NCBI GenBank assembly: GCA_001600055.1
Contig: BCIV01000016.1
Span: forward strand, 248,001 to 312,000
Length of the DNA: 64,000 bases
From: Filobasidium wieringae
Taxonomy: Eukaryota > Basidiomycota > Tremellomycetes > Filobasidiales > Filobasidiaceae
Direction: 5' to 3'
Of the stretch, positions 1,131-64,000 are shown piece by piece (within the stretch, counting starts at the first letter, position 1; each line of letters starts with the position of its first letter). The translations under genes and the position numbers were made by a program. The notes under the pieces are model-generated. The model was given only the letters and a program-made list of their open reading frames with translations, did not search any database and was not told where the DNA came from.

Positions 1131-3498
1131 ATGAGCATCTCAAGCCGTCATCTGTCTTCAACAGCAAAGCTCGCTGGATCCCGAACACCAGCACTCCGAA
1201 CGATCGCACAATCCACCCCCTCTCTTCGCCTTCGAACTCGATCATCGCCCCCTTCTTCAAGGTCGATCGCCCGAACATTCGCTCCTGCTTCAGTATCTAC
1301 CTACAGGAGCTATGCTACCACCGTACCTCTTCCCCAGGTAGATCAGACAGAGGCGCTTCCAGCTGTTTCGTTGGAGAATACTTATGATATCGTCATCATC
1401 GGAGCGGGCAATGCCGGGCTTGCTTTAGCAGCTACTTTACGTGAGTCGCCCGTTATCGCCTTCTATAACAACGAATAGTCGATTGATCCGATCGAGTGTC
1501 ACTGCAGTCTCTAAAGAATCCTTATTGGACAACGCCAAGGTCCTCCTAGTAGAAGGAGGCAGCCTCGATCGGGTTCGAGAATGGACGGGGAACGGGGATT
1601 TCGAGAACCGAGTTAGCAGTCTCACTGCGGCTAACGTCGAATTCTTGAAAAGTGAGTCCTCGAGTGGTAGCTTCGCTTGGTTTCAGGGTAATGTGTTGAT
1701 GATCGCGATGCTAGGTATCGGAGCTTGGCAATATATCGAGAGTTCAAGATCGTGTCCTGTTCAGGAGATGCTTGTGAGCTACCTTTACCTCTACCTCGAT
1801 CTCGAATAGACAGCTCAATCGTCATCTTGAACCAGGTCTGGACTTCAACCCCCTCCTCCTCGTCTCAATTACATTTCCCTACCGCTCGAGCGCCTATGGC
1901 CTACATGACGGAGAATACCAATCTTCAACGAGCTCTTTTGACTCAGATCGAACAGACCGGGCGGGGCAAGATCGCCATCAAAGAGAACGCAAGGGTAGAG
2001 GAGATGAAAATGTCCGAAGGAAAGCGAAGCGTCTTGCTCAATCTCGGCGGTCATGGTTGGGTCCGTGGAGGAGTGGTAGTCGGAGCCGATGGACCTAATT
2101 CCCCCGTCAGAGCGTTCTCGGGGATCAAATCGTTTGGTCATTCTTACCCTACTCACGGGATCGTAGCGACTCTCAATCACAGGAGGATGGATACGAACAA
2201 CACCGCATTCCAGAGGTTCTTACCGACCGGACCGTTGGCCTTCTTACCTATGAGTCGGACGGCATCGACCATGGTTTGGTCCACTCGACCGGAACTTGCC
2301 GCAGCTTATAAAGCCGTAGGACCCGACGCTCTATGTGATCTAGTCAACCTGGGTCTCTATGCGAGTGAAGCGGACCTGGAACGTCTGGACGTGGCCATCC
2401 TAAGTCAAGGCGTTTCACCCGAAATGATCCGGGCGGAGAGCGAGAGGATCATGCAATCCCTCTCTGCAGAGGAGATCAAATCTCTCCCTCCACCCATCGA
2501 ATCGATCGTACCCAAATCGATCGCCTCTTTTCCTCTGAAGTTGTCACACGCGGAGAGTTATATCGGGGAGAGGACGGTGCTTATCGGGGATGCGGCGCAT
2601 ACCGTCCATCCGCTTGCCGGGCAGGGGTTGAATATGGGGTTGGCGGATGTCAAGGCGCTGGGAGAGACGTGGGAGAAGACCAAGAAGGTTGGAGGTGATT
2701 TGGGTAAGTAACATCATCGTTCTTTGGGAAGGTTTCGGAATACTCACCGTTGGTTGGGTTTCGATCTGTTTAGGGGCTTATACCGCTATGCTCCCTTATG
2801 CTCGGGAGAGGTATCCTGCCAATCATTTGTTATTGTCTACTACGGACAAGTTGCACCATGTGTTCGGAACGAGAATACCCGTCATCAACTGGGCTCGGTC
2901 GATCGGGATGGACGTTATCAATGAGCTCTCTCCTGTGAAAAAGGCGTTGATGGAACGAGCCGGTGCTCAATCCGGGGCTACCCTGGCTTCCAAGAGCTGG
3001 TACGAGACTGGTGCGGACGCGATGGATGGATGGAAGACCGTCAAGGGTTTAGCTAGTATTGCTAAATCCGGAGCAGGCCAGTTGATCAGGAACGGTGCGA
3101 GACAGTTGTTGGAGAAGACCGCTGCTCCTCCCGCTTCCGTTGCGGGTCGAAGATCCATCCATACTTCGGCGAGGACGTTGGCAGTCAAGCCTCCTCCGCT
3201 ACACCGGCCCGGTCCCCCTCAACTCCCTAGGAAAGAACAAGCCGAGTTCGACGCGCTCGTCAAGAAAGCTCAGGCGGGTGGGATCAGCTTGGCAGATGCT
3301 AAAGCTCACGTCGCCGCATCGACCGGTGAAGAGGCTCAGCAGGCTATCGCGGAACATCGGGATCTGAGGAAGAAACCGAAGAACGAGTTTGAAGGGGAGA
3401 TCAACCCCAAGACGGGAGAGGTGGGAGGACCGAAGAGGGATCCGTTCCAGGCGGGAGATTCGGACTGGCAGTATGCCGGGAGGGTGACTGACTTTTAG
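1131..3498 (+). CDS. COQ6: COQ6 ubiquinone-biosynthesis monooxygenase fused to an SDHAF4 (DUF1674) domain
   Basis: Exons 1131..1440, 1508..1651, 1715..1773, 1836..2703, 2774..3498; 701 residues. The N-terminus is Ser/Arg-rich and looks like a mitochondrial presequence. The FAD motif IGAGNAG lies at residues 90-96, VGADGPNSPVR in the middle, and the second FAD motif GDAAHTVHPLAGQG near 422. This is the UbiH/COQ6 family, which hydroxylates the quinone ring in the matrix-side CoQ complex. COQ6 is normally about 480 residues, and its homology should end near residue 530. Without a stop, the last exon continues through a linker, a presequence-like segment (GRRSIHTSARTLAV, 585-598) and the DUF1674 signature NPKTGEVGGPKRDPF ending in GRVTDF (664-701). 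That signature is typical of SDHAF4/Sdh8, the flavinylated-SdhA assembly factor. Separate start sites or cleavage into two proteins cannot be excluded. Confidence 0.88.
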
Positions 3499-11585: not shown

Positions 11586-14500
11586 TCACATGGCCATCTC
11601 TAAGTCCCCCACAATCGAAATCTCATCCTCGTCATGTTCTTCATCTGCGCTTGCTGCAGAACTGTTCATCGTGCCTTCCCGTGAAGATCGATATCTTTCC
11701 CGAACAGGCTGATCGTCTTCCGAAGCCCATCTTCTGCCTCCACTACCTCCATTATCCCTCTCAACGAGGGAAGAAGGAGCGGTGGAAGAATTAGTTTCCG
11801 TGCCCGTCCTATGATGTACCGAGGGGTAGACTCGGTTATCACGTCCACCGTTCCCGGTACCGGTCATCATTCCCGTATGGTCATAGATCCCCGTCATCCC
11901 CCTGGTCGCCCTGACCGTTCGGTCCATCAGATCATGAGGGTGATTGTTCGATCTTCGGGGAGAAACCGCTGTATAGGATAAACCTTGAGAGTTGGGGGAG
12001 GTTGGAAGGGGGGAAATGATTCCTGTAGGACTGAGCAACATCGGGTTTCCCCTTGGACTAGAAGAAGGGCTAGGTCTTCCCAACGATCCCAGACCCTTCC
12101 CACTCCCAGCTCCGATCTCGTTTGATTCTCTGGCTCCAGGACTGGCGACCCGGATCCCTTCTTTGTCGGGTGACATTAACTGCCCAAACCCTCCACGTTG
12201 AAGGACGGGAGCTCGGATCCGTTTCCCATCCTTCTCCCTATCAATAGACATCGGTCGGCTCGGAAGGAAATCGTCGGGAATGACTAGTTCAGGTTCATTA
12301 GGTGGCGGGAGGGACCTGTTTCGAGTCAAACTCGGACTCTGAGATGAACCAGGGAGTGACTGGATTTGTCGTCCCTTGGTCAGATCCGACTGCATATCCC
12401 TTGACTGTAGATCGATGGGGCTAGGTTGATCGACGGTGGTTACGACGGGAGCCAACGAAACCTCGCCTTGTTCACGATCGCGTTCCTCCTTCTCTTTATC
12501 AGATATAGGTTCTCCACCCTGAAACGCCGAGACAGTAGGACTAGCTTGGATAGGAGCCTGAGCTAATGGGGAACTACTCTTGACGCTCGAACCCATTCTC
12601 AAGCTAAATGCAACCTCTTTGTTCGATGCAGGGAAAGACGAGGTAGAGCTGGTCCGCTCGTGTAAAGTAGGCGATACCGGTTGACCGCGCGAATCACCCA
12701 AAGAACTGGTCTGATTGAGACTAGATCGTTGTTGAGCGGCTCTCATTCCGCTAGGCATCATCCTATCTACCGGGGAGACGCTGCTCGAAGTGGCCAAAGC
12801 CGATCCAGTCAGTCCGGCAGAAGAAACAGGCTGAGGAAATGGTTGAGCAGCCATCGTATAGCTCCCCGCCATCCGATTGAGCGTATCATTTACTTGCGCT
12901 TTCGTCAAAGGTCGGCGCATGAAAGCGCTAGCCCCCGCTCCTATTCCGATGGAACCTGTCCCTGAGGGAGGTTCTGATGGCTCTGGAGAGCCTCGAGACG
13001 ATCTTCGTGGCAGGGAGAGAAGAGAAGAGGTGGATGGGAGGTAAGCCTTTGATTGGGCTACGGAAGCGGAGAGTGAAGGTGGACGTGGCATAGTGTCGAG
13101 CGTCCTGAGGAACATATTGATATCGTCATTATCTGGTGCAGTCGAGAAAGAAGGCTAGCGTACGGGGAAGAGGTGATCAGAACCTGGCAGAAGTTTTATT
13201 CTCTGTAGCTCAACTTACTGGTCTAGACGATCCGGATAATCTAGTGGTCGTTCGAGACATACTATGTCCTCCCATCCCCAATCCAGCTAGACTTCCCGGA
13301 TCCAGACTACTCGCGGCGGAACTAGGAGCTCCAGGGTTAAGTCCGAGATTGAAAGATGGCCGTCTCTGGCCGAAGGAAGACGAATATCGTTTCAGACTGT
13401 GCGGTATGACAGGAACAGGAACGCCATGTCCGGCTTCTTCTTCATGATATTCCGGGATAGGTGGGGTGGGATTGGACTGATGCCCCGTCAAACCTGGTCT
13501 AGTGGGTACGTTCGTGCGTGGAATACTACTCGAGCTAGGACTAAGGCTAAGCGGCCCTCGGAACGAAGCTCGAGATGGGCTCGTCCCGGCGCCGGCCAAG
13601 TTATTTGCCAAGTTGGAAGGCCGCGATCGTGGTTCGTTTGACTGTGAAAATGATCTTCCTGAACTTGATAGGTATGAGCTCGGTCTCTGCAACGACGATG
13701 GTCTACCATCATAACTGCCACTCTGTCGGAAGCCGGTAGCCAGAGGGCTCGAGCGATTTCCCAAACTAGATGAGGGAGCCGGGCTGACAAATGGCTGGCT
13801 CCCAGCCCCGACTTCAAGGGAAAGTGCAGAGTTGCGTCGAGCGATACCTAGTGAAGCCAAAGGGGAAGTCGATATCTGAGATGTGATTGTCAGCTAGAAT
13901 TTCTTCTGTACAATCAACTTTTAGGACTTACTCTTCCATACAGTCCACCTAATCTTGTTCGATCTCCCAAACTACTAGGTCCGCTCGAAACAGAAACAGA
14001 ACCGATTCTCTCTGTCCCCTCAGCCCCACTTCTAGTCGAGCTTCTAGGAACAGCGAACGGCAAAGCCGGTGTACCTCCTTCCGTATCATTGTTAGACCCC
14101 GCATCTGATCCTCTTCTTCCATCTCCTCTATACCTTGCATCCAGACCAACACCAGCTCCAGATCCCACTTGGGATTCGGAAATGACGCGTCTTGGTCGTA
14201 ATGGCGGTACCGCTACGGTAGGTTGACTCGCCGGTTCCCTGAGGGCGGTCGAAGCAGCCACTCCAGTCTCCCCTACATCACTTGGATCTATAGGCGTATT
14301 GTTTGCTCTGGAAGAAGCACCCGATGCCTGTTCGCCGTACAATCCGGAAGTGACGGATACGCTCGCTTTCCTCTTGGCGGTCAAAGTGGGTGTAAAGTAC
14401 TCTTCCTCCAAATCCAGAGCACCCATATTCTCCGTCTGGGCACGAGGAGCACTTATGCTTTCCCTCGCTCGCAAATCAACTCCAGCCAACGCGGAAGAGA

Positions 14501-15787
14501 GTATAGATTCCACGTCTTCCGCCCAGATATCGACTTCTTCCCTTGCCTGTACGGAGAGGGAGAACAACCCGTGCGATAGTGGGATAGTAGGAAAAGTATA
14601 CTCGATCGGTTTATCGTCCAGACCCTCCTCACTCTGAGCAGGATCTCGAGCGTTGATCCGGGTACTGTAAGGTATGAGAGATTGATTCAACCCAATCAAC
14701 CCTTGTTCCATCTTATTCCAGGCCTCTCTGATCCCTTCCTCAGAGGTCCGTCTTCTATACGTCGGCGATCCCGCTCTTCTCCCCTGCTCGTCATCCGTAT
14801 CGCTATCATCATCGTCCATCCCTAAATCATCCTGTCTAACCCAATCCTCTTCGTACCCCTCGGCGGACCACAATTTGACCCCTACCCTCAAATTCCCTCC
14901 AGATCCTCCGGAATGGTTCTTTCTTCTCAACCGACGGTGTAAGCGATAAGCGGGGAGGAGTCGGATGTATTGATAAAGTGATCTGAAATGGATAATCCCT
15001 GATTTGTAAGAAGCGGAAGATGATGGGTAGTTTATTGGATTCCCTTGTGCCGCCCCCGTAGTTTGAGCGGGAGGACGATCGGTACGGATGAAAGCGGATG
15101 AAGATGACATGGAATTGATAGGTGAGGTTGTGCTCGAAGTGGTCGGGGAAGGGTTGGAAGGTAGCTGAAGCGAACGCAAGGTCCATCTTTCTAGTACGAT
15201 CCCTCTTGTTCTTCCGGGAGATTGTCTTCCTTTGCCTTTATGATCCACAGGCTCATTATCCGTCGGTAAATCCAACCGGTAGGTATCCTTAAGCTTCACA
15301 CCTTCTCGATCTGTTCCATCTGATCCTCTTCGATGTACTAGAGCATGTTTCGCTGGAAGATCCGAGACATCCAGGATGAAAGCTATCAAGAGTGGTGGGA
15401 CGATTGCGTATGGGTTAGAAGAGGAGGCAGGAGAAGAGTTGGATATGGATTTGTAGGCTATTAAATCTGGCCGGAAGAGTTCTGGATCGGGAAGAGGGAG
15501 GTTAAACTACAATGAGGTGGACGTGGAGGGATGAATCAGCGGAAAGTCAATTGACGCTGATAAGGAGATTCATTGTTTACCCATTTATCAATCCTGACTT
15601 CCTTCTTTCCTCTTTCATTCGTATCCTTCTGATCCTCTGTTCTAGCTCCGCTTTGCCTTTCCGATTGGAATCCATCATGTGTCAGCCTAGCCTCCGTCAA
15701 GACCTCTACAGCCTTGATATAGAATCGATGTACGATCAGATCTTGTCTCTGTCGATCTTGCTGATTTGTTACCGAATGAGTAGACAT
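11586..15787 (-). CDS. ATG13: autophagy protein Atg13
   Basis: Exons 15787..15581, 15506..13932, 13875..13219, 13154..11586; 1335 residues. It is the regulatory subunit of the Atg1 kinase complex that starts autophagy. The N-terminal HORMA region is recognisable: RQDLIVHRFYIKAVEVLTEAR, then KWFNLPLPDPELFRPDL across the first intron, LERWTLRSL, the helix RSLYQYIRLLPAYRLHRRLR and LSHGLFSLSVQ. The remaining 1000 residues are Ser/Pro/Gly-rich and disordered, with many possible phosphorylation sites, as expected for the TORC1-regulated tail. It is longer than the yeast protein (about 740) because of this tail. The start is the first ATG in the N-terminal exon; the frame stays open upstream with a TTG only. 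Exons 1 and 2 join without a stop and complete the conserved KWFN motif. Confidence 0.9.
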
Positions 15788-16529: not shown

Positions 16530-18563
16530 TTACTCATCATCTTCTTCATCTTCGTATCGCAATACTCGTTTTTGTATGACCGTCTGATCCCGAGTAGCCA
16601 ATTCTTCATCCTCGTCATCCAGATCCATCGGAGCGGCCGTCTCCACTCGAGCTGGAGTCGGTTCCGCTGAGTAACGCATAAGTGAGTCGTTAGGCACAGC
16701 GCTTTTCAAAAAAGGGAAAAACCAAATTGAACTCACCTTGCTCCTCCTCCCTCTCCCTCTTCTTCCTCTCTTTCTTGGCCTTCTTCTCAGCCTGCAACAA
16801 CTTTTCCGCCTCCCTCTCTGCGTAGTCCAACTCCTCCTCCGATTCCTCGCTGGCATAATCTCGGGTCGACTTTTTCGCTCGTTTGCTCGATTTGGGGTTG
16901 GAAGAGGATTTCGTCGCTCGTCGCATCTCACGATCGAGATCATCTGAATCGGCAGCGGATCCTTCTGATTGCGATTTAGCACCAAGACCGGCGTCTTCAT
17001 CTTCATCATCGTCCACCTAGATCGTACGGGAAGAAAAGATGGTCGATCAATTTCCTTCAATAATTCGGGTAATCAGGCACTGAGCGGAACTCACGACGAA
17101 ATCGTCCGATTCGTAATCTCCACCTCCATACCCACCCCCGCCCGACCTCCGTCCAGCCCCCATCGCATCCATATCCTCATCAGAACTATAATCCGCCCTT
17201 CCTCTATTCCCTTGAACCCTCTTCCTACCCGCTCCAGCAGCAGGTTCCGTCTCGTCCCTCTCTCTCAATTGAACCCCGCTCGATCCCTTCCAAACGGGCA
17301 TACTGAAGGCGGCATTGAAATCATGACCCCTATCCTTGAGTTTCTTTCGTTGAGATTCTTGTAATTCCCTGACCTGGTCTTCGATGATCTTGTCAGGTCG
17401 AATCCCGGACGTATCGACGTGAGAATGGATCCTAGCCTTCTTCGCGGTGGCTTTCGTCACTGCGGTGACACGTTTCTGATGATCCCTGACGTTCCGAGTC
17501 TGAGCGACGAGGGAGATGGATCCGGTCAAGATGGTATCCGCGACAAGAATCCGATCGTCGAAATCGGTCGCGAAGAGGACAGAGGGTGGCCCTTCCTTGT
17601 TGACCGTTACAGGCGGCACATATTGAGACTGCGATTGACTCCCCTCCGCTTCCCTCTTCATCTTCTGTTCCGCTACCATCTCGTTCAACGCGAAAGGTTT
17701 CTTCCCTCCACCCGCAGCCACACTCTCTACCTGTAAATCCCACATCTCCTGCCCGACCATCAAACTAGCCGTCCCGTCACTCCACCTAATGACTCGAGCG
17801 TTACTCTTCTTTACAGGAACCCCCTGAGATCCATCGACCCATTTCCATCGGACGGAATTGGCAATAGAATGCATCCTGTTCAAAGCTCGTACTCGTTTCT
17901 GTTCTTCAGTCACATCGTCCATCTCTTCCGATTCTTGTATTGGGCCTTGTTCGGACCGGTAAAGATCGGGGTGGAAGGGTTGACGAGGGAAAGTGATTGC
18001 TGAAGGTAGCTTCAATACCCATGCCTTTTGGTTACACGACAGTGTCTCATATCAGTCTCAAAGTCCACTGAGATTAGAAGGAAAAGGGCAAAGACTGACT
18101 TGTCCGTCACTACTAGCCAACTTTGGGATCTTGGGCAAGACCATGTTAGCCTCCAAAAGCGTTTCCTCAGTGACCATAGCATTATCGTCTTCCTCATACT
18201 CCAGCTTCTGCCTCCTTCCTACTTCATCATCACTCGCACCGGACGATCGAGAAGAGCGGGATGTATCGCGGGGACGTTTCGTAGGGGTCGAGGTGGTGGA
18301 TCTTGAAGGACGGACGGGGGAAGGGGTTCGCGAGTTGGATCGAGCTGGGGATTGGGATGATCTTTTTGTTACTGGAGGTCGGACATCGTCAAACTATAAG
18401 TCAAGCGGCGTGTTTTAGGAATCAGTCAATGAACTTTGAGAACGTGAATTTAAGAGAGCATTACCATGTCAGCGAGTCCATCTTGTTGTGCAAGTGGGGA
18501 TGCTGATCGAGAACGCGGTACTGCTGGCGATCCAGGAGGGGAGGTTGAGGGAGAGGCAGACAT
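16530..18563 (-). CDS. LEO1: Paf1 complex subunit Leo1
   Basis: Exons 18563..18465, 18393..18100, 18024..17095, 17016..16737, 16666..16530; 579 residues. Leo1 is a nuclear subunit of the Paf1 elongation complex that travels with RNA polymerase II. The conserved core begins at AWVLKLPSAITFPRQPFHPDLY and runs through RMHSIANSVRWKW, SNARVIRWSDGTASLMVG and GSISLVAQTRNV. The N-terminus is Ser/Arg/Pro-rich. The C-terminus is a strongly acidic and basic mixed-charge tail (SEESEEELDYAEREAEKLL, then EDEEDDE), as in other Leo1 proteins. The second intron uses the donor GTCAGT. Adjacent to the divergent Rap1-like gene; the two starts are 316 bases apart. Confidence 0.93.
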
Positions 18564-34241: not shown

Positions 34242-34328
34242 TTCTGCGTAGCACAGTGGTAGTTGCACCGAGCTGTTATTAAATAACTTGCAACTCGGGG
34301 GTCCGAGGTTCGACCCCTCGCGTGGAAG
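34242..34328 (+). tRNA. tRNA-Asn (anticodon GTT) with a 14-nt intron
   Basis: The acceptor stem TTCTGCG pairs with CGTGGAA (two G-U pairs). The A box TAGCACAGTGG and B box GGTTCGACCCC are intact. The anticodon stem is CCGAG/CTCGG (34268-34272, 34294-34298). The anticodon loop reads CTGTTAA once a 14-nt intron (34279-34292) is removed between positions 37 and 38, the canonical place. The anticodon GTT is at 34275-34277. The intron contains AATAAC, able to pair with the GTTATT around the anticodon. The T stem is CGAGG/CCTCG. Confidence 0.9.
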
Positions 34329-44346: not shown

Positions 44347-47300
44347 ATGTCGACTACCTCGTCTTCCTCACCTCGACCTCCTCCGCCTCTTCAAGACCAG
44401 GGGTCACCGATGCAGGTCGATGACAAGCCCGCCCATGAAGCAGAAACATTCGACCAGCCTCATTTGGATGGGATCTTTCCACCAGAAATACAGCAGACTA
44501 TCGATCAGGTCGTAAACGATCATGATCATGAGCTGGCGCAATCTATTGCGGCGGATTTGTTTGGCGGTGTCGTGCCGGAAGATTTGTTACAGGCGATCAA
44601 TCAAGTTCAGCGGGAGGACGATGATCATGACGAGCTAATGGAGGGCGGAATGCAGGACGCTGCAGAGAGTATGATCAATTCGATATTCAGCTCAGACTTT
44701 CTGGACCAACTCAATGAGAATTCGGACAGCGTCTCGTTGGACATGCTGGAACATCACACGAATGCCACGAATTCCCCGTTCGTGCTCAATTTGGACCACG
44801 AACACCTCGCTTCGATCGCCAATTCGATCGTCAATTCTCCTCATGGTTCGGTCATGCAGGAACATACTCCCATACCATCGCCAACACAAAACGGATTTGA
44901 TAGACCCTTGCAGGCTCAGCCAGCCGGATTTCGACCATTCCATCCATCTCCTATTGCTACCACAGCCAGTCCTATTGTACCATCCCATCCTTCAACGGAA
45001 ACGACACTGAGATCGACTTTCAACGGTGAATCTCATAATACCGTCCCCGTTATACCCACCGCAAGACCATCACCACAATATACGACCACAACTCCGGAGA
45101 CAGATCAGGCTCCCGCCATACCGAAAGCGTCCAGCGAGGTATCAAAGCCCTCTCCTTTCCCAGCAACTGTTCCGCCTAATGCTGCGCTCACAACCGTCCG
45201 GGCCGTTCCGAACGTACAATTGCAATCCAAATTGGCTACCAATCCGCAACCCAGTCCCAGTATCGGGCCAGACAACTCGGTAAAGACGGCTGGAAGCGCA
45301 ACTCCCACCCTTACGCATATCCCTGTCGCAGTGCCCTTGCCCTTAAAGCAGTCCTCGGCTTCAGTTAACGCAGCCTCGAGCTCTTCTAGAACGGATGCGA
45401 TCGCCGGAAAGCCTCAAGACAATGACGATAGGCAGATCATCAAGAAGCGCCGTATCAATGAAGGCTTAGGCGAGAAAGCTCGAGTTATGGAGGGACTGGA
45501 CGTTGCTGCTCTACAGGATTTCGAGGACATACTTTCAATCCCAGGTATCTCAGAGATCAGTGGAGATCTTAGGGAGGTGCTAGAAAGTGGTTCCACTGGA
45601 GAGAAGCCGCTCAGCCAAGCACAAATCGATGAGATCGTCGGTGAGTGCATTGGACAGGATACTTGTGGCGCGGGCTCACCTTTCATCTCGTTTTAGCTTC
45701 TCTCGGTCGTCCTGGTACTTTAGATCAGAAGAATCAGGAAGAAACCGTGCCAGCGCAATTTGCTCATCCGATAGCATCAGCTTCAACAGTGTCAGGCAAA
45801 TCCTCACAGGAGAAGATCGCTTCAGCCGGGGAAGATATTGACGAACTGGAAGATGACAACGATCCGGCCTCACAAGCTCAGGAACTTCTTGCCATGATCA
45901 GCGCTCTCCTTCCAGCTGGCGAAGATTATCAGGACGATGGTGCCCAATCGGAAGATGAGCTCGAGAATGACATAGACGAAAATGCAGAATCTCCCGCACC
46001 CGCATCGCTACCGGACGGAAAGGTGAAAAAGGAAAAGGATACGCCCGCAGAGAAAAAGGAGAAAAAGCGACGGAATCGGATGGTTCTGTGAGCAATTGAG
46101 ACAGTATCGCCAGCTAGTTCGCCCTTCTAATCTAGTACCATACATAGGAGTTGTACCGAATGCCATAGACGAGTGAGTGTACTGCTCGTTTGCCCCATGT
46201 TTGGCCATGCTAACGCACCTCTTTCCTTGACCAGAAACGTAGGTTGCGTTAAAATTAGAGTAAAGATTGTTACTAACGTCCTTCTGTCTGGTTGAATCTT
46301 GCTCATGACAGAAGCAGTAAGTCACTATTCCCTTCGCTTCTGTGCAATGTTCTCATGTTGCTTTCGCCATCAAAGTGCGATCGTAATATACCCTGTGCCC
46401 GATGGTCAGTCCGAAGAAACCAGTTCTCTATCACGAAGTTGGGTACTGACACCAAGTAAACAGTGTGAAGCGAGGTGTTCCGGAGCTCTGCCACATGGAA
46501 GCCCCCGTCATGCCAACAAGGAAAGGCAAGCGAAAGTAAGACGATAAGCTACTATCATGATGGATATACATTGACCGAATACTGATTACCTTCAGGCGGG
46601 AAGACGAAGCCTTCTATCAAGCCATGTCCGCTCCTGGGTTCGATTGGACCGCCCGAGTACGCGCGCTGGAAAGCTTGTTGCGAACAAATCCTGCCGCATT
46701 TGCCGATCTGGACCTGAACAACACCCTTGTTAGTGGCATGTCTAGCTTGCAGATGCCCTTATCTGAGGTGCCTACTGCGGACGAACAAGAGATGCAAAAC
46801 CAGATCCAAGCGGTAATTAGTCTTATCAATCAAGCACAAGCTGCTCAGCATCAGCTTGAATTAGAAGGTACCTCTTCGAACTTAGTGACCGCACACCTCA
46901 CGCCGACTGGGGCTCCACTGGCTAGACCGGTGGAACCCAACAACGCACTGAAATCTCCTGCATCTACGGCTTCAGTGGGGCCTAATCAGGCTTCAATAAA
47001 AGTGATATCACCTCTCACCCACGCTACTGATGCTCAACCCAGAACTGGTGGTGTGGGCGATGTGCAGTCCCCCAGGGCATCGCCTGGTCCAAGTTCTTTG
47101 CCTGCTGCAAGCTCACCTGGTGTTAGACCTGTGTCACAGACAAATCGTTCCAGCCCGATGCCATCTCCTTTAGGTGTATCGTCCTTCAGCAATAACTCTA
47201 CCGCTACACCAAAGCCATCTTCATCGGTACCTTCAAGAATCATCTCCGCCAACGCTAACACGAAAGCGCCTACGAGTCCACTTGTGATCGCGGCCGGACC

Positions 47301-49808
47301 CGATGCAATACCGCAGCCCCTATCAAGCTTGCAACTCACACGATCTAGCTCAGTCGACGTTGTGCAAGAGCATGCGAAGCTCATCGAGGTGCCGAAGAGC
47401 GATCTGGTGCCTTTGACCGTAACAAACGTACTCCCGGCGACTGGTACGGATAAGCAGAGCACAACAGTGACAGAAGGACCAGACGGTGTAGCCTCAGCAG
47501 TGGTGCCAAAGGAGAACAATGGTATCATTTCCGACGTTCTTGAGACTTCTGTGGGTGGAGAGGGTTCCCATGGTCATACGAATGAGAGAGCGAAGGTTTT
47601 ACAACTAGCGAGCAAACCCGCTAGTCCTCCCCAACCTCTCAATGAAGGTGCTGATCCCCAGGACGTAGGGATGCACGTCGACCTGATACCTTCGGGGTCG
47701 TCCCAACCTCCTGAAGTTATGACTGCCATCGAAAATGATACTAGTTCAGGCGACTCGTCCGAGATGAACACCAGTCATACTGCCAAGGATTCTGGAGCAC
47801 TTAATATACCTGCAAACCTACAGGCTGAATTGGCAAAGCTTGCTCAAGGAGTTCAAGACTCTGCCTTCACAGACGATCTGCACGAATCGTTCGAGACCGA
47901 CATAAATCTTAATGATCTTATCAATGGCGATACCTCAGCAATTTTAGCGCAGCTCGCGAGTTCCATAACAGTCCCTATGGCTGTTCAGCCGTCGGAGACG
48001 GATGATGCTCAAGGAACGATCCTCATGGACATGATAACTCAACTGACGAATGGAGGGAATAAAGCGCAGACAGCTTCGTTGCTAAACATACTATCTGTTG
48101 CTCCACAAGCTGCTACAACCCCTACTAGCGAGCTCTGGGCATCAGTACCACAAGCGCCTGTCGAGACGTAAGAGAATGTCTTTTGAAATGGTAACAAGGG
48201 AAACTCACCTTCTTCGACTTCTTTTAGCACGCAACAAGTGGCTCGTTCTTTCAGCACAGATATTGGTGTCCATAAGTTGAATTTAGGCCTAGCTGGGTTT
48301 CGAGAGGACGACGGACGAATATTCGTCCCACCTACAACTCGACAGGTTGAGCGCCAAATGCATCTCCGAGGAGGACTGTCTCACGAAGCCCTTCCCATTG
48401 AGGGTCATGCTCCCTTCCTAGATCTCGCTCTCAAATTCGCCTACGGGAAAGATGGCTATGCGTACAAGGAGGGTAGGGTAGGTACTTTCCCATATCTATA
48501 CGACTTGACCTAGCCTACACTAAGCCGTCCCGCTCTGCACAGATTGCTGCTGTTCAGACGATGTCGGTTACTGGTGCTCTGAAACTTGGCGCCACTTTCT
48601 TGTCACGCTTTCCTGCTCACCCTGCTTCGAAAGTAATTTATATTCCAAATCCAACGATTGAGGAGGAGGCTTGGGCATTGCGCGAGGCAGGCCTGGAGAT
48701 TCGCCTATATCGGTTCTTCGACAGAAGGACTGGAGGTGTGGACTGGGAAGGCATGCGAGAAGATTTGCAGAACGCGCCGCATCAATCGATCATTCTTATG
48801 CATGTCGGTGGAAGTACACCTACTGGCGCAGAGCTCACGGCTGCGCAGTGGCGGCTGATTACTGAAGTTATAAAGGTGCGTTCGTCCTTGACACATACAT
48901 GCTTTTGGAACTGCGTGCTGAACAACAGACCATATTCGATTTAGCAACAACGCCATATCCCGTTCCTTATTTCAGAGTTCCAAGGCTTGTCCAGTGGCAA
49001 CGTCGATCGAGATGCACAAGCCTTAAGAATTATGGCGCATAAACGGATCCCTATGGTCTTGGCTCAAAGTTTTGATGCTGTGAGTCCGCAACTTGTTCCA
49101 CATGGTGAAATCAACTCATACAAATTCATCAACAGGCCATGGGCTTGTACTCTGACAGTCCATCTATCGTGTCAATCGTGGCCAATGCTCATGCAGATAA
49201 GGACAGAATTGAATCGCAGCTCAAGCATATGGCTCGCGCAATGCATTCACATCCACCACCCTGGGGAGCTCACGTAGCTGCTACAATACTCGGCACTGAA
49301 AGCGTTTATAATAACTGGCAAGTACGATAAGAATCATCTATCTGACTGAACCGCTTACGTTCGTTTCTTGGAACCCTGCAGGACACAAGAGGTCAAAGCG
49401 ATGTCCGATCGTTTAAAAAGTATCCGTGAAAAGCTATTCGATCATTTGACCAACAAGCTCAGAACCCCTGGTAATTGGTCGCATATCCGGAAGACGCATG
49501 GCATGTATTGGTGAGCAATATTCCCTGAGCCGTCTTGCAAATATATATCTTAACAATTCTTTGATAGCAATACACTTCTAGCTCCACAGCAGCTACAGAC
49601 GCTTTCTTATAGAGAACACATACACCTACTACCGGAAGGCTGTTTCTCTCTGGGTTGTCTGAATGCAGCCAAGATCGAACAGCTCGCCCGTGCGATCGAC
49701 AGTGTGGTTCGAGATTCTCCTATGGAGGATGATGATCTAGCTGCCCAGGCTGCCATGCAAATCGAGATGGCACTTCGCCAAGGATTTGGGCCCGATGCTG
49801 GATTTTGA
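44347..49808 (+). CDS. Zn2Cys6 transcription factor with C-terminal pseudo-aspartate-aminotransferase domain
   Basis: Fourteen exons: 44347..45640, 45697..46087, 46148..46172, 46235..46238, 46312..46316, 46376..46404, 46464..46535, 46596..48167, 48228..48477, 48543..48875, 48945..49079, 49136..49317, 49382..49510, 49568..49808; 4662 nt, 1553 residues, frame closed throughout. Residues 1-545 are acidic and Ser/Pro-rich. A basic run (KKEKKRRNRM) precedes a complete binuclear zinc cluster at 564-592: CTECHRRKQAC, DRNIPCARC, VKRGVPELC (spacing C-2-C-6-C-5-C-2-C-8-C). It is built from five small exons, including 4- and 5-nt ones. After 530 disordered residues, an aspartate-aminotransferase fold begins near 1137 (HKLNLGLAGFREDDGR) and runs to the end (SGNVDRDAQALR, KHMARAMHSHPPPWGAHVAA, GNWSHIRKTHGMY). 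The catalytic Lys and most cofactor residues are replaced. The intron from 49318 has a GC donor (GCAAGT). Likely a nuclear regulator whose C-terminal domain senses or binds rather than catalyses; that is inference. Confidence 0.82.
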
Positions 49809-50927: not shown

Positions 50928-51374
50928 GGTAAAAGAGCCGCTTTGGTGTAGAACTGGCGAAAGAACAACTCCATATAGGTTCGTCGAGGTCTCGCCGAGC
51001 TGTCCGCTGCATGGGCGTATTACAGATATCCTGTAGGTGTCGACATAGCTAGCATCCGCACTTCAGAAGCGACGCGTATATGAGTCAGATTACTGTACCT
51101 GCTAATTGCTGATATCTGTTCAGTAGTATGGATGCCTTGTACTCTATGCTCCCACAAACCACAAATAGCACTTGGCACCACTTTTAAGGTCGATCAAGTC
51201 AACATATCGAATTGCACCAGTATCGTTCAGCTGCTCAGCGCGTAATCCTAGAGCAAGCGTTTCTTGCATTTCACGGGAAGCAAGACGATCTTAGCTGCAC
51301 CTGAAGAGCCACCTATCTAGCGATGAGATGCTAGTCCGAAGATAGTTGAACAATCCTTGCCGTTTCCCCTCGCA
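50928..51374. other. divergent promoter, PEX11 / CTK1
   Basis: 447 bases between divergent starts, with no ORF or site that could be assigned. Confidence 0.55.
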
Positions 51375-54300
51375 ATGTCAAACTGGAAACAACGGGGACG
51401 CCAGCATGATCCATATATCCGGGATGACGGGTGGAAGCGCAGGGAGGATCGACAAGCTGTAGCGGCATCGGTTCTGCCAGGAGATCCACGAAGGGACAGC
51501 GACCGAGCTATCAGGCAAGGTGAAGGTCTGGACTCGTCGCTTCGCAATATTCATGATGGTACTCCCCTCGGCACTCGAAGCTATGCTGACGAAAACCTCG
51601 ACCAGCCTTCAGGAAGCCGCTGGAATCAAGGAGGTAGACCTATCCAACCACGCAAGTTTTTAGATACAGAAGATCGCTACAGTAATAGCAGATCAGGCTC
51701 TGATTACAACAGGTCATACCATGATGCTGTGAGGGAGGGCCGCAATCGAGATTCCTTTTCTCAGAAAAAATCTACAAGTAGGCAAGCTTACAAATCAGTT
51801 AGTTCTCGTGCACACCAACCAACTAGCCACCGGGTCCGCGCAGACAGACGGTCACCTGAACGCTCTTCAACATCGCCCGAGCCGCTACACAGAGATACTG
51901 AGCAAAAGCGTAGATCTGTATCCCGACATAGTTCTAGCTCAATAGAACCGGTGAGTGGAAAATCGTATCCACGCCGTCACACTCGGCAACCTCTTGGACA
52001 ACCGGATAAGCACGATTCTTACGGCGGATCTGCTTATAAAGAGATACGTCGCAGCAACTCTCCGAGACCAAACGAAGCTACCCAATCTTATACTAGCAAC
52101 TCTCACAAGCGAAGTGCATATGCGGATGATGACAGGGAAATCAACAAGCGACGGAGATTGTCCCGTTCACCTTCCCCATTGGCCCCGGCAACAGCCGCAG
52201 TCGGCTGGGACCGATGGCGTCGGCAACGTCTTAGCAACACGAAGCATCCCGACACAAATATCAACGAGGACATCGGTAAAACTGGCAACGCCACTCGACC
52301 AGACGATCATTCTTCTGTCGTGCGGAATGCGTATGAAAATCGTAGCCATACAAGCACAAGGGTCTATTCTGGCTCTAGTCGAGAAATCGGCAGAAAAGGC
52401 TCTGGTCGAGCTTTTCAAGACCGCAGAGATGAGCCCGATCGCGAACCCCGCAGCTATCAAAGATCTCCATCTAGATCTCCTCGACGTTCTCAGGCAGATA
52501 GACCTTCATATCGTACTGAGCGAGTCAAACGGTCTCCTTCACCAGTCCGTGATATCAGACGGAGAAACGCAAGCGTCTCTTCCTTCTCATCTGACGAGTC
52601 GTCCGAACCTCAGGCACAGAGACCGAGTGCATATGTATCCAGCAGAGCTCGACGGAATACACGCTCGACATCGGTTTCTACTAGACGTGCAGTCGAACGG
52701 CTATCTTCTAGAGAGCGTTCCCCTCGAATCGATTCTGGGGGAGCTCCCGTCAGAAACAGATCGCGTACTCTGATACCGACAAGTCCAGCCAGAAACCGCT
52801 CTCCCAAAGGAGTCCGTTGGGCATCGCAACGCGATGATGATACGAGTCCGGCGTCGCCCAAACCACCTATAGTAATCCCTCCAAGGACAGGGCGTACCCC
52901 AACTGGACCTCGAAACACAAACTACGAAGGGAACCATTCTGGAGTGCATCATCGGTTTCTTACGAGAGTTTCTCCTACTCCTACTCCTGCTTTTGCAGAT
53001 CTGCCTGAAGTGAGCCCGAGGGCTTTAGCTGGTAGCCGCGCCTTTGTCAGTATCGCTCTTCCAAAGAAGCAATCGATCGTTTCGCAGGCAGCTCGATCTC
53101 CCGAACTCAAACCCAAGCCTCAGGGTTTGAAGGCGGACATGCTAGCCAATAATTCCGAGCTTGAGGGAGTTAGACGACAGCTGACAGCCGAGCAAGGACG
53201 ATACTCACAGTTGCAACATCAAGCACACCCTTACATGAGAACGACTATCTCGCTGCTGCAAAGAAAGGATCCTAACCTTGTCTGGAATGTCGAAGATTTT
53301 CTTCGAGACTCTTTTCGTCGAGAACCCAACGATCATGAACTCCACGCTATTGGTATGATGCATAGTCAGCTCAAGATCATCAGGCTGCTCGAGGAGCGAG
53401 AACAAGCGCTTCTCAATCTTATCTCCACTGCCGACGAGGCAGGTCCTCCCAGCACGGCGGCTATCGCTTCACCATTCCGCTCCCCGAATGGTGGCAATCA
53501 ACGTATTGTCGACAGGGAGTCAGCTCGATGTTACGAGCCACAAGGATCACATCCTAGTCCTACTGTACCATCGGAGCGGGACCTGAGGTCTCTAGACATA
53601 ATATCCTCTCAACGCGTCCAGCCTGAGGACTTACCAGTCGGGAGTTCCAACAAGCCGTCCCCGAAAAACTTCTCTCTGCCACAGCAAGCACCTTTGGTCA
53701 AAGGAAAGCCTTACGAGAAGATTGTACAAGTAGGCGAGGGTACCTATGGGAAAGTTTATAAAGCTCGGAATCAAGAGGGGTGTGGAATTGTAGCCCTAAA
53801 ACGAATACGAATGGAAGGAGAGAAGGACGGCTTTCCGGTGACCGCCATGCGCGAAATCAAACTACTTCAAGGGTTAAATCATGAGAATGTTATCAAGCTG
53901 CACGAGATGATGGTATCCAATGGTAAGCAACCTTGGCTTTCGAACTGGTGGATGTGAGGACTGACAGAAGGCTTGCAGGGTCGGTATACATGGTTTTCGA
54001 ATACATGGAGCACGACCTTACGGGAGTGCTTAATCAACCGCAGTTCATTTTTTCTGAAGGGAATCTTAAAAGTCTATCGGCACAAATGCTGTCTGGACTA
54101 TCATATCTGCATCAGAAATCGATTCTACATCGAGACATGAAGGGCTCAAACATCTTGCTCAACAGCATGGGTATACTTAAATTGGCAGATTTTGGTCTGG
54201 CCAGGTTTTACGATAGAAAGAAACGCAACGATCATACAAATCGTGTCATTACCCTTTGGTATCGTAGTCCGGAACTTCTCATGGGGGAGACTGTGTATGG

Positions 54301-54953: not shown

Positions 54954-55745
54954 AAAGATGCCATGATTCAGCGATGAGGGTCACCATCCTCAATTTCACT
55001 TGCTTGTTTAATCAGCTCGGTTACTCGTGTCATCAATGGGTATTTGTACAATATTGGACAAGGGAGATGAGGAAGATGTCCTTTGTCGGGAGCGACGCTT
55101 CTTCGCTGCGGCTGGCTCATCGTAATGCCACTGTATTTCCGGATCTGCTCAGTGGTGGTTACCGGATTTCTTGGTCGCAATAAAGTCATCGTAGATAACG
55201 TAAAGGGTAAATGCTCCGAGTCCCCACGTAAATCCAGGGAACAAGTTTCTATACCCAGAATCCCGCACGGTTTCTTGTTCAGCTTAGAACTGACCGGTAT
55301 CCAGCAATTCTCTTACCTGAACATCGCCTTGTTCTGGAAGATGGGTGACTTTCTCCAAGCTTCCCGCTTTGCCCATGGGTCTCGATATAACTTTGACATC
55401 CTAAAGGCAAACAAGCAGATATGCCCTCAAATTAGGAACGAAGTGGAGGAGTGTTTGGGGATGCATGGTCTCACTCACTTGGTATCCACCAGAAGTTTCA
55501 AAAAGGGAGAGAAGTGGGGAGAGTCCAACGTTGGGTGCCGGGTGGTTACAATCAGTGCATAGTTGCGATTGGTATGAATGGTAACGGTTGCCTGTAAAGT
55601 GAAGCCCTAATAATTCACGTTCGCTCGAGCGAATAAAGTACCAATTCGAATTCGTCCGTCATACGGTGGGATATCGAAAGCATCCTCTTTCAATACTAAT
55701 CCACACGTCCTAGGGCGCCAGCCTTTCCCAGCACATACCCAACCG
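54954..55745. other. intergenic region after CTK1
   Basis: 792 bases. A plus-strand open frame (55083-55562; first ATG at 55125, about 145 codons) is present but shows no recognisable motif and no splice sites joining it to a neighbour. It is left uncalled; it may be 3' UTR and promoter. Confidence 0.4.
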
Positions 55746-57460
55746 ATGCTAGTACCTCCGTCAGTTCCAACAGGGCAACATCACCAGTCTTCACAGCCGC
55801 TATCAGACCAGGATGTTCTGGGCTCGATCACTTTAGCTCTAGCGAGTACAGCGGATGGATTCGAACGAGATCTCACAACGAACATGAATGTAGACCGCGG
55901 AAACAACGGCGATCTCGTTGACGAATCGAGGTCGACGGATAACCATATAGAGGAATCTAACAGGGGCTCTAGATCTACTCTGGCAATCAAACGCGGACGG
56001 GGCCGACCGAAAGGATCTCTGGATAGGATGCCAAGAGCGTCTCGGGCAGGAAAGTCAGGGAGCGTGGATGATTTTGAGCTTGGGGAAGTCGGTCAGGATG
56101 TGTTCGATAATGACCCAGCATATACAGCTGCAAAACGTAGGCCGGGGCGACCACGAAAGCCAACCGGTGCAAGCGTCTCTGTGCATGAGGCGGCCGCGTC
56201 CAAACTCGGCAGTTCACTTCCACCCTATCAGTCAAGCTCGAAGAAGCCGTCACAAGGTGGAGAGGGTCCGAACCCAATGAGCGCCGAGAGGAGAGAGGCT
56301 AATCGATTGGCAGCGGAGCGCAGTCGACTCCGCCAGGCAGAAAGAGCGACCATTCTAGAGACAATGGCCAAAGGAATGACACAGGAGAACATCGAGTTAA
56401 AGAGTAAAATCAACGCTTTGATGGCACTGGCCGATAGTACCGATAGACCTGTCACTTCATCTCAACACCCTCAAGCTGCGGATTGGCAGCGTACTGGTCA
56501 TAAATTAGCGTTGGGGACAAACGAAAATCGATCATCCGTCAGCGTACCAATAGGTTCTACTGTCATAGTCGAACGTATGCCTTGTCTACAATCGGAGATA
56601 GAGGATGGTCTCCAACGCGATGCTAAGCAATTAGAAGCCTTGCTGAACGGAGGGGTCACGCAAGCAGCAGCTTCGTACACAGAGGAAATTGGTTCTACCT
56701 TTGATGAGCGGGAGACACTCGAGGACATCGCTAGACGCTTAGAAACGGAGCGCCAGCAGTCTTTGCAAAAACTGTCTCGTTCTCGAGCGGGACTCCTCCA
56801 GTTACGTGTATCTGCTGATCATCCGGTGCCATCTGCGGAGCATGACGTTGACGCTGCGCAAGTTCATCTGGCATTTGCCGGCCTCGAAGCACACGTCGAC
56901 CAATTACTTGCGGTAAGACAACAAGTTTCAAGTTCCGAACACATCTGACTTGGTTGCTGACAGCCAAATCGGATATTTAGCATTACGATCCCGTTCCCAG
57001 TATGAAGTCCAGTCAGATGTTTACTTTACCGGCGAAGTTCTCTCCGATACCACTGCCTGAGCCTTTGAAAAGAGGGCGTCCTAGCAAGGTTCAAGAAGAG
57101 AAGACCGTTCGGAGACGCACAAACAGAGCTCTCAACAAGGTCTCCACGAACGAACACAAGCAAGGATCGCGTCCCACGGAGCGCAAAGTGAAAAAACGTC
57201 CCGAGCAATTTCGGCGTTTCCGGGTTGAAGGGGACCCTGATAATATATACATCGAGAAGAGACAACCAGCTGCAGGAGCCCCTGGTGAGATCGTCGAAGT
57301 GATCAGTAGAAGAATTTATAATCCCCGACCGGATCTTTCAGGCTTCAGACACAAAGAGCGAAATCGGTCCAGCGATTTAGAGGCTCATTTAAACCGAATT
57401 GAGCCGCACACAAACTCTAGTGTTCTGGAGGAGCGAGGTGCCCACGACTCATTTTTGTAA
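55746..57460 (+). CDS. AT-hook and bZIP-like nuclear protein
   Basis: Exons 55746..56912 and 56981..57460; 548 residues. Three AT-hook cores are present: KRGRGRPKG (near 83), KRRPGRPRKP (near 130) and KRGRPSK in exon 2. A bZIP-like segment follows (about 180-225). Its basic region ERREANRLAAERSRLRQAER contains N-x-x-A-A-x-x-S-R, the bZIP signature, with a short heptad stretch after it. Further coiled-coil sequence lies at 340-370 (LEDIARRLETERQQSLQKLS). The combination suggests a chromatin-bound transcription factor binding A/T-rich DNA. No specific fungal family was identified. The single 68-nt intron joins in phase 0. Confidence 0.72.
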
Positions 57461-57700: not shown

Positions 57701-59219
57701 CTACTCGAGGTAAAGATCCAGCACATCATGAAGAAGGGGACCCGCTTTGAAATCTAGTTTTTCTATACCAGGAAGACCGTCAGCCCTGGTGGGTCCAGTC
57801 GATAAGATCAAAACCGGTTTCTTGGCTTCTACAGCCTGTTTGATGAGCCTGGACATTCTCATATCAGCTAAACACATCAAGATCGACGGCGATTCACAGG
57901 GTCACGTACCGGAATGCGCTGTAAGTTGCAAGTGAAGTGCCAAGCACAAGCACGGACGACGCGTTTGTAACCATTTGATGTCTGACTGCCTTTGATCAGT
58001 CTGCTGCTGGTTATATCGTCTGGGCCTTGCACCTCACTCACGAGCGATCCTTGATATCCTCTTTGATGGTTTCACCGAAAAACACGACGTTCGGTTTCAC
58101 TATGGATCCCTCTATTCCGATATCGTGACACTTTGAGCAAGATGGCACGATGAACTGCTCATATTGAACTTCTCCAAGGTCGACCTTTAAGCACGTTTTC
58201 AGAACACATTGACGGCTGAAGGCAATAGAATTCGACGAACATCTCCGTCTGGATTTGTCTTCAGCGGGCCTCCATGGGATTCTTCCACAATTTGCTGCCA
58301 TCTCGGGTTTAGTTCCGCTAATCGTTCTTGCCATCTATCTCGAGGCTCGACGTGATGATGCAGAGGACAATGAACATAATGCAAAGTTCCGTGTAATTCT
58401 AGCACTCTTCGATCCGTTTCTTCAGGCGTAAATGGAGAGGCTTTGTGATGTAGGCGATCCACCTGTTCATACTCCGTCAGCTTTTCCCAGCCTGATGGCT
58501 TTGTGGCTCTCACATTTTGCGTTATCAAAGATGGAGCTATACCAAGTCGTTGTAAAGAAGCGATATACATATGGGTAGGATTAGGTACCGCTTGCTTGAC
58601 GGGTATATACTGCCATTTGATAGAGTATTCAGCGGGGCATCCCTTCGCTAGGGCATGTGATAATAGCTTACCCCAATAAACGATCTTGCCCAGTCTTGAA
58701 GTCAAGTTAATGAGTACCAAGAATGCCTTCGGCGCAGCAATCTCGACTCACATCTTTTTCTATGAGACTCGCGCATGTAAAATATGAGACACTGTCTCGG
58801 TGAGGCAACTAAGTGAGACGGCATACCTGTACAGGTCTCCTTTGGAGCCGGGATCAACCAGTTCGCCATAGAAAATAGGACTGTTACCAGAACCTGGATG
58901 AGCGTTGTGAACGATAGACAAGGTAGAGACATGTACCGGAAATTTGGGTTCTGAGTATCTGCGAGTGATAGTGGTAAGGTAATAGCATCTCTATCTAGAC
59001 TACAACACCCTTACAATGGCCTTCCGTCCCCCTGTAAGCCCTAATACCACTGTCGACGCTTACTCCAGCACCGGTCAAAATGGCTGTTTTGTACTGTCCT
59101 TTATCGAGAAATAGTTTCAATTTCTTGACAGCATCTGCATGTGAGAGTCCAGCTAAAGGGTTGACGAAAGCAGGATGCTTGGCTGAAGGAAGCGGCAGAT
59201 TAGGTATCGAGATCCGCAT
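57701..59219 (-). CDS. SIRT4-type mitochondrial sirtuin
   Basis: Ten exons: 59219..59015, 58958..58937, 58880..58827, 58759..58752, 58694..58672, 58609..58514, 58462..58241, 58184..58042, 57981..57910, 57848..57701; 330 residues. NAD-dependent protein deacylase. Motifs are AILTGAGVSVDSGIRAYRG, NFRPIFYGELVD, RKRYWARSFIG, the catalytic ITQNVDRLHHKA and LELHGTL, KPNVVFFGET, and the NAD-binding VLVLGTSLATYSAFRL. The RKRYWARS motif depends on an 8-nt exon (AAAAAGAT, 58752-58759) that restores phase on both sides. Of the two Zn pairs, the second is CSKC. The first reads CPLH rather than CxxC. The N-terminus is short, hydrophobic and basic, with no acidic residue in the first 30, fitting mitochondrial import. 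Sirt4-class enzymes act on mitochondrial acyl-lysine; the substrate here is unknown. Confidence 0.9.
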
Positions 59220-62548: not shown

Positions 62549-64000
62549 ATGGGAGCTTTGGACTATGCTCTCCTCGGTGAGTTTCGCTCAGGTGAATTAA
62601 AACTAATATGGGATTGACAGCTCTCCATTTCCTTCAGCGTTCACGCATCCTGTCAGTAGCCTCTCCCGCTGCTGAGCACTAGAGTATGAATGTTGAGCAT
62701 TGTTGGTGTTTCTAGAGCGAGCTTCGTTCCCTTCTGACGTACAAGATCTATCATGACCCCAAGAGGGATATCACCGATCCTAGTGAATACGAAACAAGCG
62801 GTTATGACCGGCAAACGATGAAGGAGTGCTGGAGGCTTCTAGACCTTACCAGTCGAAGCTTTTCTAGCGTTATCAAAGAGCTGGATGGGGAACTTGCTAG
62901 AGTGGTTAGCATCGCGATAAGCAAATTTTTGGACAATACGACGATGTTGACTTATCGAATTGGCAACTAGGTTTGCATTCAGTATCTGGTGCTGCGTGCA
63001 CTGGATACTGTCGAAGACGATATGACTTTATCAAACTCGGTGAAGCTTCCATTACTGGAAGACTTTCATAACAAACTCAACCAATCTGGCTGGACTTTCG
63101 ATCAGAGCGGCCCGAACGAGAAAGACCGAGAGGTCTTGCAGAAGTTTGACTTGGTCATCGACGAGTATCAGCGTCTTCAGCCAAAGTGAGCTGGTTTGAT
63201 TTGCTCGTAATGAACGCTTGACGTTCGGTGGTCGTCAAGCTGATCGTGCTTCGTGTAGATATCAAGAAGTCATCAAGTCCATTACACAGAAGATGGGTAG
63301 AGGAATGGCTAGTTTCGCTGCACTGGCTACCCCTGAACAACCGGTAGCTGAAGTCGGCTCTATTGCCGATTACGATCTTTACTGTCACTATGTTGCAGGT
63401 TTGGTAGGAGAGGGCTTGTCTGGGCTGTTCTCGGCTTCAGGAAAAGAACGTGAATTTATCAAGGACCAACTCACATTGTCTAATCATATGGGACTATTGC
63501 TGCAAAAGACCAACATTCTACGGGACTATCGCGAAGACGTGGACGAAGGTCGTGGATTCTGGCCTCGTGCTATTTGGAGCAAATACGGCTTCGATAAGAT
63601 GGGTGATCTGCGCGACGAGAACCGGGAGAAGGAAGCATTGTGGGCATTGAGCGAGATGACCTTGGATGCCCTAAGGCATGCTACATCGGCGCTGGACTAC
63701 TTGAGTCTGCTTCGGAATCAAAGTGTTTTCAATTTCGTCGCCATTCCAGCTGTGATGGCTATCGCTACAATTGAAAGGTGTTTCATGAACCCTGATGTAC
63801 TCCGCAGGAACGTCAAAATTAGAAAGGGAGAAGCTGTGCAGGCAAGTCTATGATCGCTTCACAGACACTTTCCAAAGGCTTACCCCCGTCAAATTGTTTC
63901 CGCAGCTTATGAACATTGCAGTCAATCCAAGAGATGTCGCATACTGTTTTGTCAAGTACGCCAAGCGTATCCATGCTAAAGTCAACGTTGAGGATCCCAA
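62549..64000 (+). CDS. ERG9: squalene synthase (farnesyl-diphosphate farnesyltransferase), partial
   Basis: Exons 62549..62576, 62638..62651, 62716..62904, 62971..63185, 63259..63841, 63906..64000 and on beyond the window; 374 complete residues seen. An ER-membrane enzyme that joins two farnesyl diphosphates to squalene, the first committed step to ergosterol. Motifs are LTYKIYHDPKRD, LTSRSFSSVI, the first Asp-rich LRALDTVEDDM, YCHYVAGLVGEGLS, and the second Asp-rich NILRDYREDVDEGR followed by FWPRAIWSKYG. The second exon is 14 nt. The intron 63842-63905 has a GC donor (CAG|GCAAGT), a strong GC-AG consensus; reading through it reaches a stop within three codons. The C-terminal membrane anchor lies outside the window. 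Confidence 0.96.

Follow-up and report, generated by a model that had tools for sequence, protein, structure and literature searches.

A stretch of 64,000 nucleotides (nt) of Filobasidium wieringae DNA (assembly GCA_001600055.1, contig BCIV01000016.1, positions 248,001 to 312,000 of the forward strand), analysed whole and called the window in what follows, carries at 44347-49808 (+) a gene whose predicted protein joins a fungal Zn2Cys6 zinc cluster to a C-terminal domain related to aspartate aminotransferase (AAT). Fourteen exons were rebuilt from the DNA by splice-site fitting, with the ATG at 44347 and the stop codon ending at 49808; joined, they give a frame of 1553 amino acids (aa) with no internal stops. 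The 13 introns measure 56-73 nt, 12 of them GT-AG and a single one (49318-49381, donor TG/GCAAGT) GC-AG. Splicing of the 14-exon model is inferred from sequence and homology.

The exons are given below, all on the forward strand, with a slash at splice junctions. Exons 3 to 7 are backed by the enumeration of splice paths described in the next section; for exons 9 to 14 the evidence stands in parentheses. Active-site residues are numbered as in pig AAT.

44347..45640 (+): exon 1, acidic low-complexity N-terminal region, residues 1-431; frame open from the ATG, donor G/GTGAGT
45697..46087 (+): exon 2, acidic region with a QAQELLAMISALLP block, then basic KKRRNRMV leading into the zinc cluster
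46148..46172 (+): exon 3, 25 nt, cysteines 1 and 2 of the zinc cluster (SCTECHRR)
46235..46238 (+): microexon 4, 4 nt (CAG/AAAC/GTAGGT), first part of K-Q-A
46312..46316 (+): microexon 5, 5 nt (CAG/AAGCA/GTAAGT), remainder of K-Q-A
46376..46404 (+): exon 6, 29 nt, CDRNIPCAR and the start of the next cysteine codon
46464..46535 (+): exon 7, 72 nt, CVKRGVPELCHMEAPVMPTRKGKR, cysteines 5 and 6 and a basic linker
46596..48167 (+): exon 8, RVRALESLLR stretch and a long low-complexity linker reaching the AAT domain
48228..48477 (+): exon 9, start of the pseudo-aminotransferase domain, Y70 to A1185 (Pfam, PDB match, active-site table)
48543..48875 (+): exon 10, pseudo-aminotransferase domain, G108 to V1223, W140 to I1253, N194 to T1306 (PDB match, active-site table)
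48945..49079 (+): exon 11, D222 to I1334, Y225 to F1337, K258 to A1370 as its last codon (PDB match, active-site table)
49136..49317 (+): exon 12, R266 to S1378, R292 kept as R1404, GC donor at its end (active-site table)
49382..49510 (+): exon 13, pseudo-aminotransferase domain (PDB match)
49568..49808 (+): exon 14, R386 to C1499, end of the AAT fold, short acidic tail and stop (active-site table)

The two domains

At residues 564-592, CTECHRRKQACDRNIPCARCVKRGVPELC holds six cysteines spaced C2-C6-C5-C2-C8-C, which falls within the Zn2Cys6 spacing of C-2-C-6-C-5~12-C-2-C-6~9-C, and the Pfam scan of the protein finds PF00172 (Zn_clus) at 24.9 bits against a cut-off of 21. Both the six cysteines and their spacing are identical between the window and Kwoniella-type sequences. 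The cluster is built from exons of 25, 4, 5, 29 and 72 nt, the 4-nt and 5-nt exons encoding its middle and forming the riskiest part of the gene model; their K-Q-A is comparable to the KQH or KQQ of homolog models with an intact cluster. Skipping both microexons (9 nt) keeps the frame open, and a working DNA-binding domain would need both to be spliced in.

Exons this small are easy to invent, and we therefore enumerated the GT-AG splice paths over 46148-46535, allowing introns of 45-120 nt and no more than five of them. Among 7806 paths eight are stop-free with the zinc-cluster pattern, and one of these eight has both the homolog KQ and the KRGVPxxC tail. As a random control, 300 places were drawn in the window, two overlapping the gene were skipped, and both strands and three frames were searched, with the list of paths capped at about 6000 per place. 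The pattern appeared at none of the 298 places, and a zinc cluster produced by chance from free splicing was rejected as an explanation. Downstream of the cluster, RVRALESLLR is likely a helix, as modelled with modest confidence in a homolog.

The C-terminal domain matches PF00155 (Aminotran_1_2) over residues 1146-1517 at 126.8 bits (cut-off 19.7). In a PDB sequence search it matches mitochondrial AAT (E=1.3e-76), over query residues 5-392 of a 394-residue piece, and the AAT fold is retained in the structure model of a homolog. The preliminary description of the locus had given the same coordinates, 14 exons, 1553 residues and cluster position, all of which we reproduced from the DNA; the complete binuclear zinc cluster that it proposed is borne out by the cysteine spacing and the Pfam score above cut-off, and its full-length aminotransferase-like C-terminal domain by PF00155 and the PDB sequence match.

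Active-site residues were tabulated for 38 of 46 sequences (the window protein and 37 related models, leaving out fragments P0038-P0045), a set that includes many close relatives, such as two Kwoniella bestiolae models. P0047-P0050 served as active-type AATs on account of their retained lysine. The lysine that forms the Schiff base with pyridoxal phosphate (PLP), K258, is replaced in all 38 members, by A in 29, S in five and T in four, and it is absent from 20/20 sequences after reduction at 80% identity. Also lost in 38/38 are D222, R266, R386, G108 and W140, while Y70 and N194 are lost in all 37 members with a residue at that position. Y225 is retained in 12 members and R292 in every one, and 37/38 have D or E at position 257. 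Since the PLP lysine and the other main cofactor contacts are lost in the members tabulated, the domain is, judged by its residues, a catalytically dead pseudo-aminotransferase; an ordinary active aminotransferase is ruled out by the same losses.

Columns of the former pocket are variable more often than others (13/18 versus 25/69, p=0.008). Newly conserved columns are not enriched there (2/18 versus 8/69, p=1), and the idea that the pocket has been rebuilt as a new conserved one found no support in this comparison.

In Kwoniella pini (P0004, residues 833-953) a single, highly charged helix of about 120 residues is predicted at the end of the pseudo-aminotransferase; the window protein has no such helix. 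A ubiquitin-interacting motif in the C-terminal tail had been considered; Pfam at E<=1 gave no match for it in six homologs, and the idea was dropped.

Relatives and their gene models

Protein searches, each scoring about 8000 candidates inside a length range, gave 45 related models. In six of them a single protein carries both the AAT domain and an intact cluster. Another 18 combine the AAT domain with a partial cluster, eight lacking the cluster middle and ten holding the cluster tail; three begin at a Met just past the sixth cysteine; and 18 have no cluster, eight of these being shorter than 450 aa and looking like fragments. Five of the intact models are from named species (Kwoniella pini, K. 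dejecticola, Cryptococcus sp. DSM 104548, C. wingfieldii and C. floricola). The sixth, P0032, is 865 aa long with both domains, and is perhaps a transcript because its source contigs are at most 3399 bases for a gene this intron-rich. The joint architecture that the preliminary description put up for a search in fungal proteins is thus present in relatives, whole in the six models and with a partial cluster in the 18.

Filobasidium floriforme (Filobasidiales), Kwoniella pini (Tremellales) and Cutaneotrichosporon oleaginosum (Trichosporonales) were looked up as Tremellomycetes, and the genera of the other named family members, Cryptococcus neoformans included, are placed in the same class. The single named match outside the class among the roughly 8000 candidates per search, Bachmanniomyces P0048, is an ordinary AAT with its lysine retained.

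The window protein and Kwoniella pini P0004 align in two colinear blocks, the zinc cluster (46%, E=9e-32) and the AAT domain (50%, E=2.5e-167). The nearest relative is that of F. floriforme, at 74% over 550 residues; the first residue of its model, P0001, is the Met of HMEAP in the exon 7 region. Upstream of the window's cluster, a QAQxLxAxxSALxP stretch recurs weakly in P0013 (E=0.48), and the N-terminal PLSQAQIDEIVASL resembles PLTREQVQEFV of Tremellales in a profile search (E=0.038), which is a hint only.

Because of the tiny exons, many genome annotations appear to miss the DNA-binding part. Seven relatives' models read CTECHRR/CDRNIPC, the cluster minus the residues of the two microexons, and P0023 reads CTECHKHCDRN. 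In other models the break falls near VL/, RR/, /CDRN or /RC, not far from where the introns of the window gene lie. Such breaks, read from the relatives' protein models, would be in keeping with introns that are conserved and microexons that were overlooked. In Cryptococcus neoformans, model P0020 (632 aa, 37 member sequences) takes as its start a Met that relatives have two residues past the sixth cysteine. Fungal annotation commonly misses DNA-binding domains, and more than 90% of factors with only a middle homology domain (MHD) have been attributed to annotation error, according to the available part of the CeGAL paper (PMC10141177).

Two models, apparently of the same gene of Kwoniella bestiolae CBS 10118, read CTECHRR/CDRN (P0002) and VF/RCIKRG (P0011) at the cluster; the disagreement shows that gene prediction is unstable there. 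The models of C. neoformans (P0020) and C. bacillisporus (P0036, 529 aa) both start beyond the cluster site, so that a count of transcription factors based on these models would pass over the gene. Taken across the family, the models suggest that in these fungi microexons have left many public annotations of a conserved regulator without its DNA-binding domain.

Proposed regulatory role and alternatives

We consider it probable that the locus encodes one protein acting as a DNA-binding regulator, with the dead AAT domain as a scaffold for dimerization and partner binding. From N- to C-terminus the predicted layout is an acidic low-complexity region, the Zn2Cys6 cluster with basic flanks, a probable short helix, an extended flexible linker and the AAT-type domain. 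Such a protein would work in the nucleus as a transcriptional regulator, its acidic N-terminus perhaps an activator or repressor surface. Genuine AATs are dimers; most likely the dead domain would hold two zinc clusters together in a putative dimer, and it may offer a surface to partner proteins rather than sense a PLP-linked amino acid. Since the enzyme site is dead, the fold's scaffold role would be separable from PLP chemistry.

Some observations weigh against this proposal. The Pfam scan at E<=0.001 found only Zn_clus and Aminotran_1_2 and no further transcription domain; the middle homology domain (fungal_trans) gave no match at that threshold. Long models lacking the cluster exist in Naganishia (P0013, 1130 aa, and P0017, 1412 aa) and Saitozyma (P0015), with P0046 as a further case, and its absence there would be either true loss or mis-annotation.

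Several known systems resemble parts of the protein. In bacteria, the MocR, GabR and PdxR regulators likewise couple a DNA-binding domain to a fold-type I aminotransferase domain put to regulatory use. Their DNA-binding domain is of the winged-helix GntR type, and the PLP lysine is generally retained; the window protein has a Zn2Cys6 cluster instead, with no GntR match in the Pfam scan at E<=0.001, and the lysine is missing throughout the tabulated family. The window gene would represent a second, apparently independent pairing of a DNA-binding domain with an aminotransferase fold, now with a dead enzyme site. QutA and Qa-1F, which activate quinate use in Aspergillus and Neurospora, are Zn2Cys6 proteins whose regulatory part derives from AROM domains; they too combine the cluster with a part of metabolic-enzyme descent, but the ancestor there is AROM, while the Pfam and PDB sequence searches point here to AAT. 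With mitochondrial and cytosolic AATs the window protein shares the fold and full-length sequence homology, differing in the missing active-site lysine and cofactor contacts and in its N-terminal DNA-binding extension.

As far as the available part of PMC10141177 describes them, the CeGAL factors likewise have a Zn2C6 domain that annotation error often removes, in one case through a short exon of two amino acids; they carry a middle homology domain, in contrast to the AAT fold at the C-terminus here. Trichoderma virens Xlr2 has a 20-nt microexon in its zinc cluster that is omitted in glucose and was missed by annotation (PMC11121469, available part). A microexon thus encodes part of a Zn2Cys6 domain in both genes; Xlr2 differs in its glucose-dependent inclusion and in having a fungal transcription factor domain, with no aminotransferase domain reported in that part of the paper.

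The preliminary description had raised a metabolite-sensing factor, possibly tied to amino acid or nitrogen control. One such protein would bind a ligand (amino acid, keto acid or free PLP) non-covalently in its former pocket and alter its DNA binding in the manner of MocR and GabR, with which it shares the pairing of domains. The universal retention of R292 and the near-constant D or E at position 257 suggest that parts of the pocket region are constrained, but the PLP lysine and almost all tabulated PLP and substrate contacts are gone in all 38 members, the pocket columns are the more variable ones and new conservation is not concentrated among them; we regard a sensor as unlikely. What stands of the earlier claim is the joining of Zn2Cys6 to an AAT fold; its usual PLP-sensor form is not supported, given the lost lysine and the variable pocket, and the link to amino acid or nitrogen control found no support in this analysis.

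A vestigial zinc cluster, or one that splicing mostly removes, also seems improbable; the main product would then be a pseudo-aminotransferase that does not bind DNA. An intact cluster is missing from 39/45 models, the double skip stays in frame, and in the available part of the Xlr2 paper microexon exclusion removes the Zn2Cys6 domain (PMC11121469); yet the six cysteines and their spacing shared with Kwoniella-type sequences are unexpected in a vestige, and cluster exons are often missed, as the attribution of most MHD-only factors to annotation error illustrates (PMC10141177, available part). Least credible is a wrong fusion of two adjacent genes. The region 46088-46595 is mostly intron with five small exons, and 18/45 models show the AAT side only, against which 24/45 unite the AAT domain with a full or partial cluster and three more start just after the cluster. 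For separate genes in relatives, which the preliminary description had named as a check, the 24 fused models speak for a single gene; the 18 cluster-free ones leave that side of the check incomplete, no search having been aimed at genes with a zinc cluster only. On these comparisons the window locus is very probably one gene.

Beyond the proposed scaffold-type regulator, a more elaborate scheme, to which we give little credence, is a regulator with a Zn2Cys6 cluster and a dead AAT domain spread through the Tremellomycetes, a class that includes a major human pathogen. In-frame inclusion or skipping of the 9 nt of microexons would switch DNA binding, the form with the 9 nt binding DNA and the skipped form dimerizing, unable to bind DNA itself and blocking it, and the pseudo-enzyme would read a non-PLP ligand or a partner. 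By analogy with Xlr2, a microexon-skipping switch is a possibility that the exon structure of the window gene raises.

The preliminary description knew of no Zn2Cys6 version of such regulators. No paper on a Zn2Cys6-aminotransferase fusion stands among the literature matches listed, judged by title and abstract start and with subscription papers and bioRxiv mostly outside coverage; the domain pairing itself, in contrast, is already in databases, where both Pfam domains are recorded together for P0032 and for five named-species proteins among the 17 and 32 listed by two of the protein searches. The available main text of the C. neoformans transcription-factor collection paper (PMC4391232) has no aminotransferase word, and that of the Ezt1 paper no word beginning with aminotransferase. 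In their available parts PMC10470540, PMC8022950 and PMC3990503 name microexons only as a mapping option.

Twenty of the 40 longest open frames of the window were scanned with Pfam, and its other features include:

34242-34328 (+): tRNA by Rfam (39.8 bits, 87 nt), perhaps intron-bearing, with no ARAGORN call
1692-2708 (+): FAD_binding_3 match
13917-15506 (-): ATG13 match
17050-18051 (-): Leo1 match
58202-58747 (-): SIR2 match
63200-63850 (+): squalene/phytoene synthase match
51327-53954 (+): R/S-rich frame of 876 codons that runs at its end into the first part of a protein kinase domain (PF00069), probably an intron-split kinase gene
55614-56945 (+): bZIP domain (PF00170, E=1.7e-6) in an open frame lying about 6 kb downstream of the gene described here, likely another transcription factor

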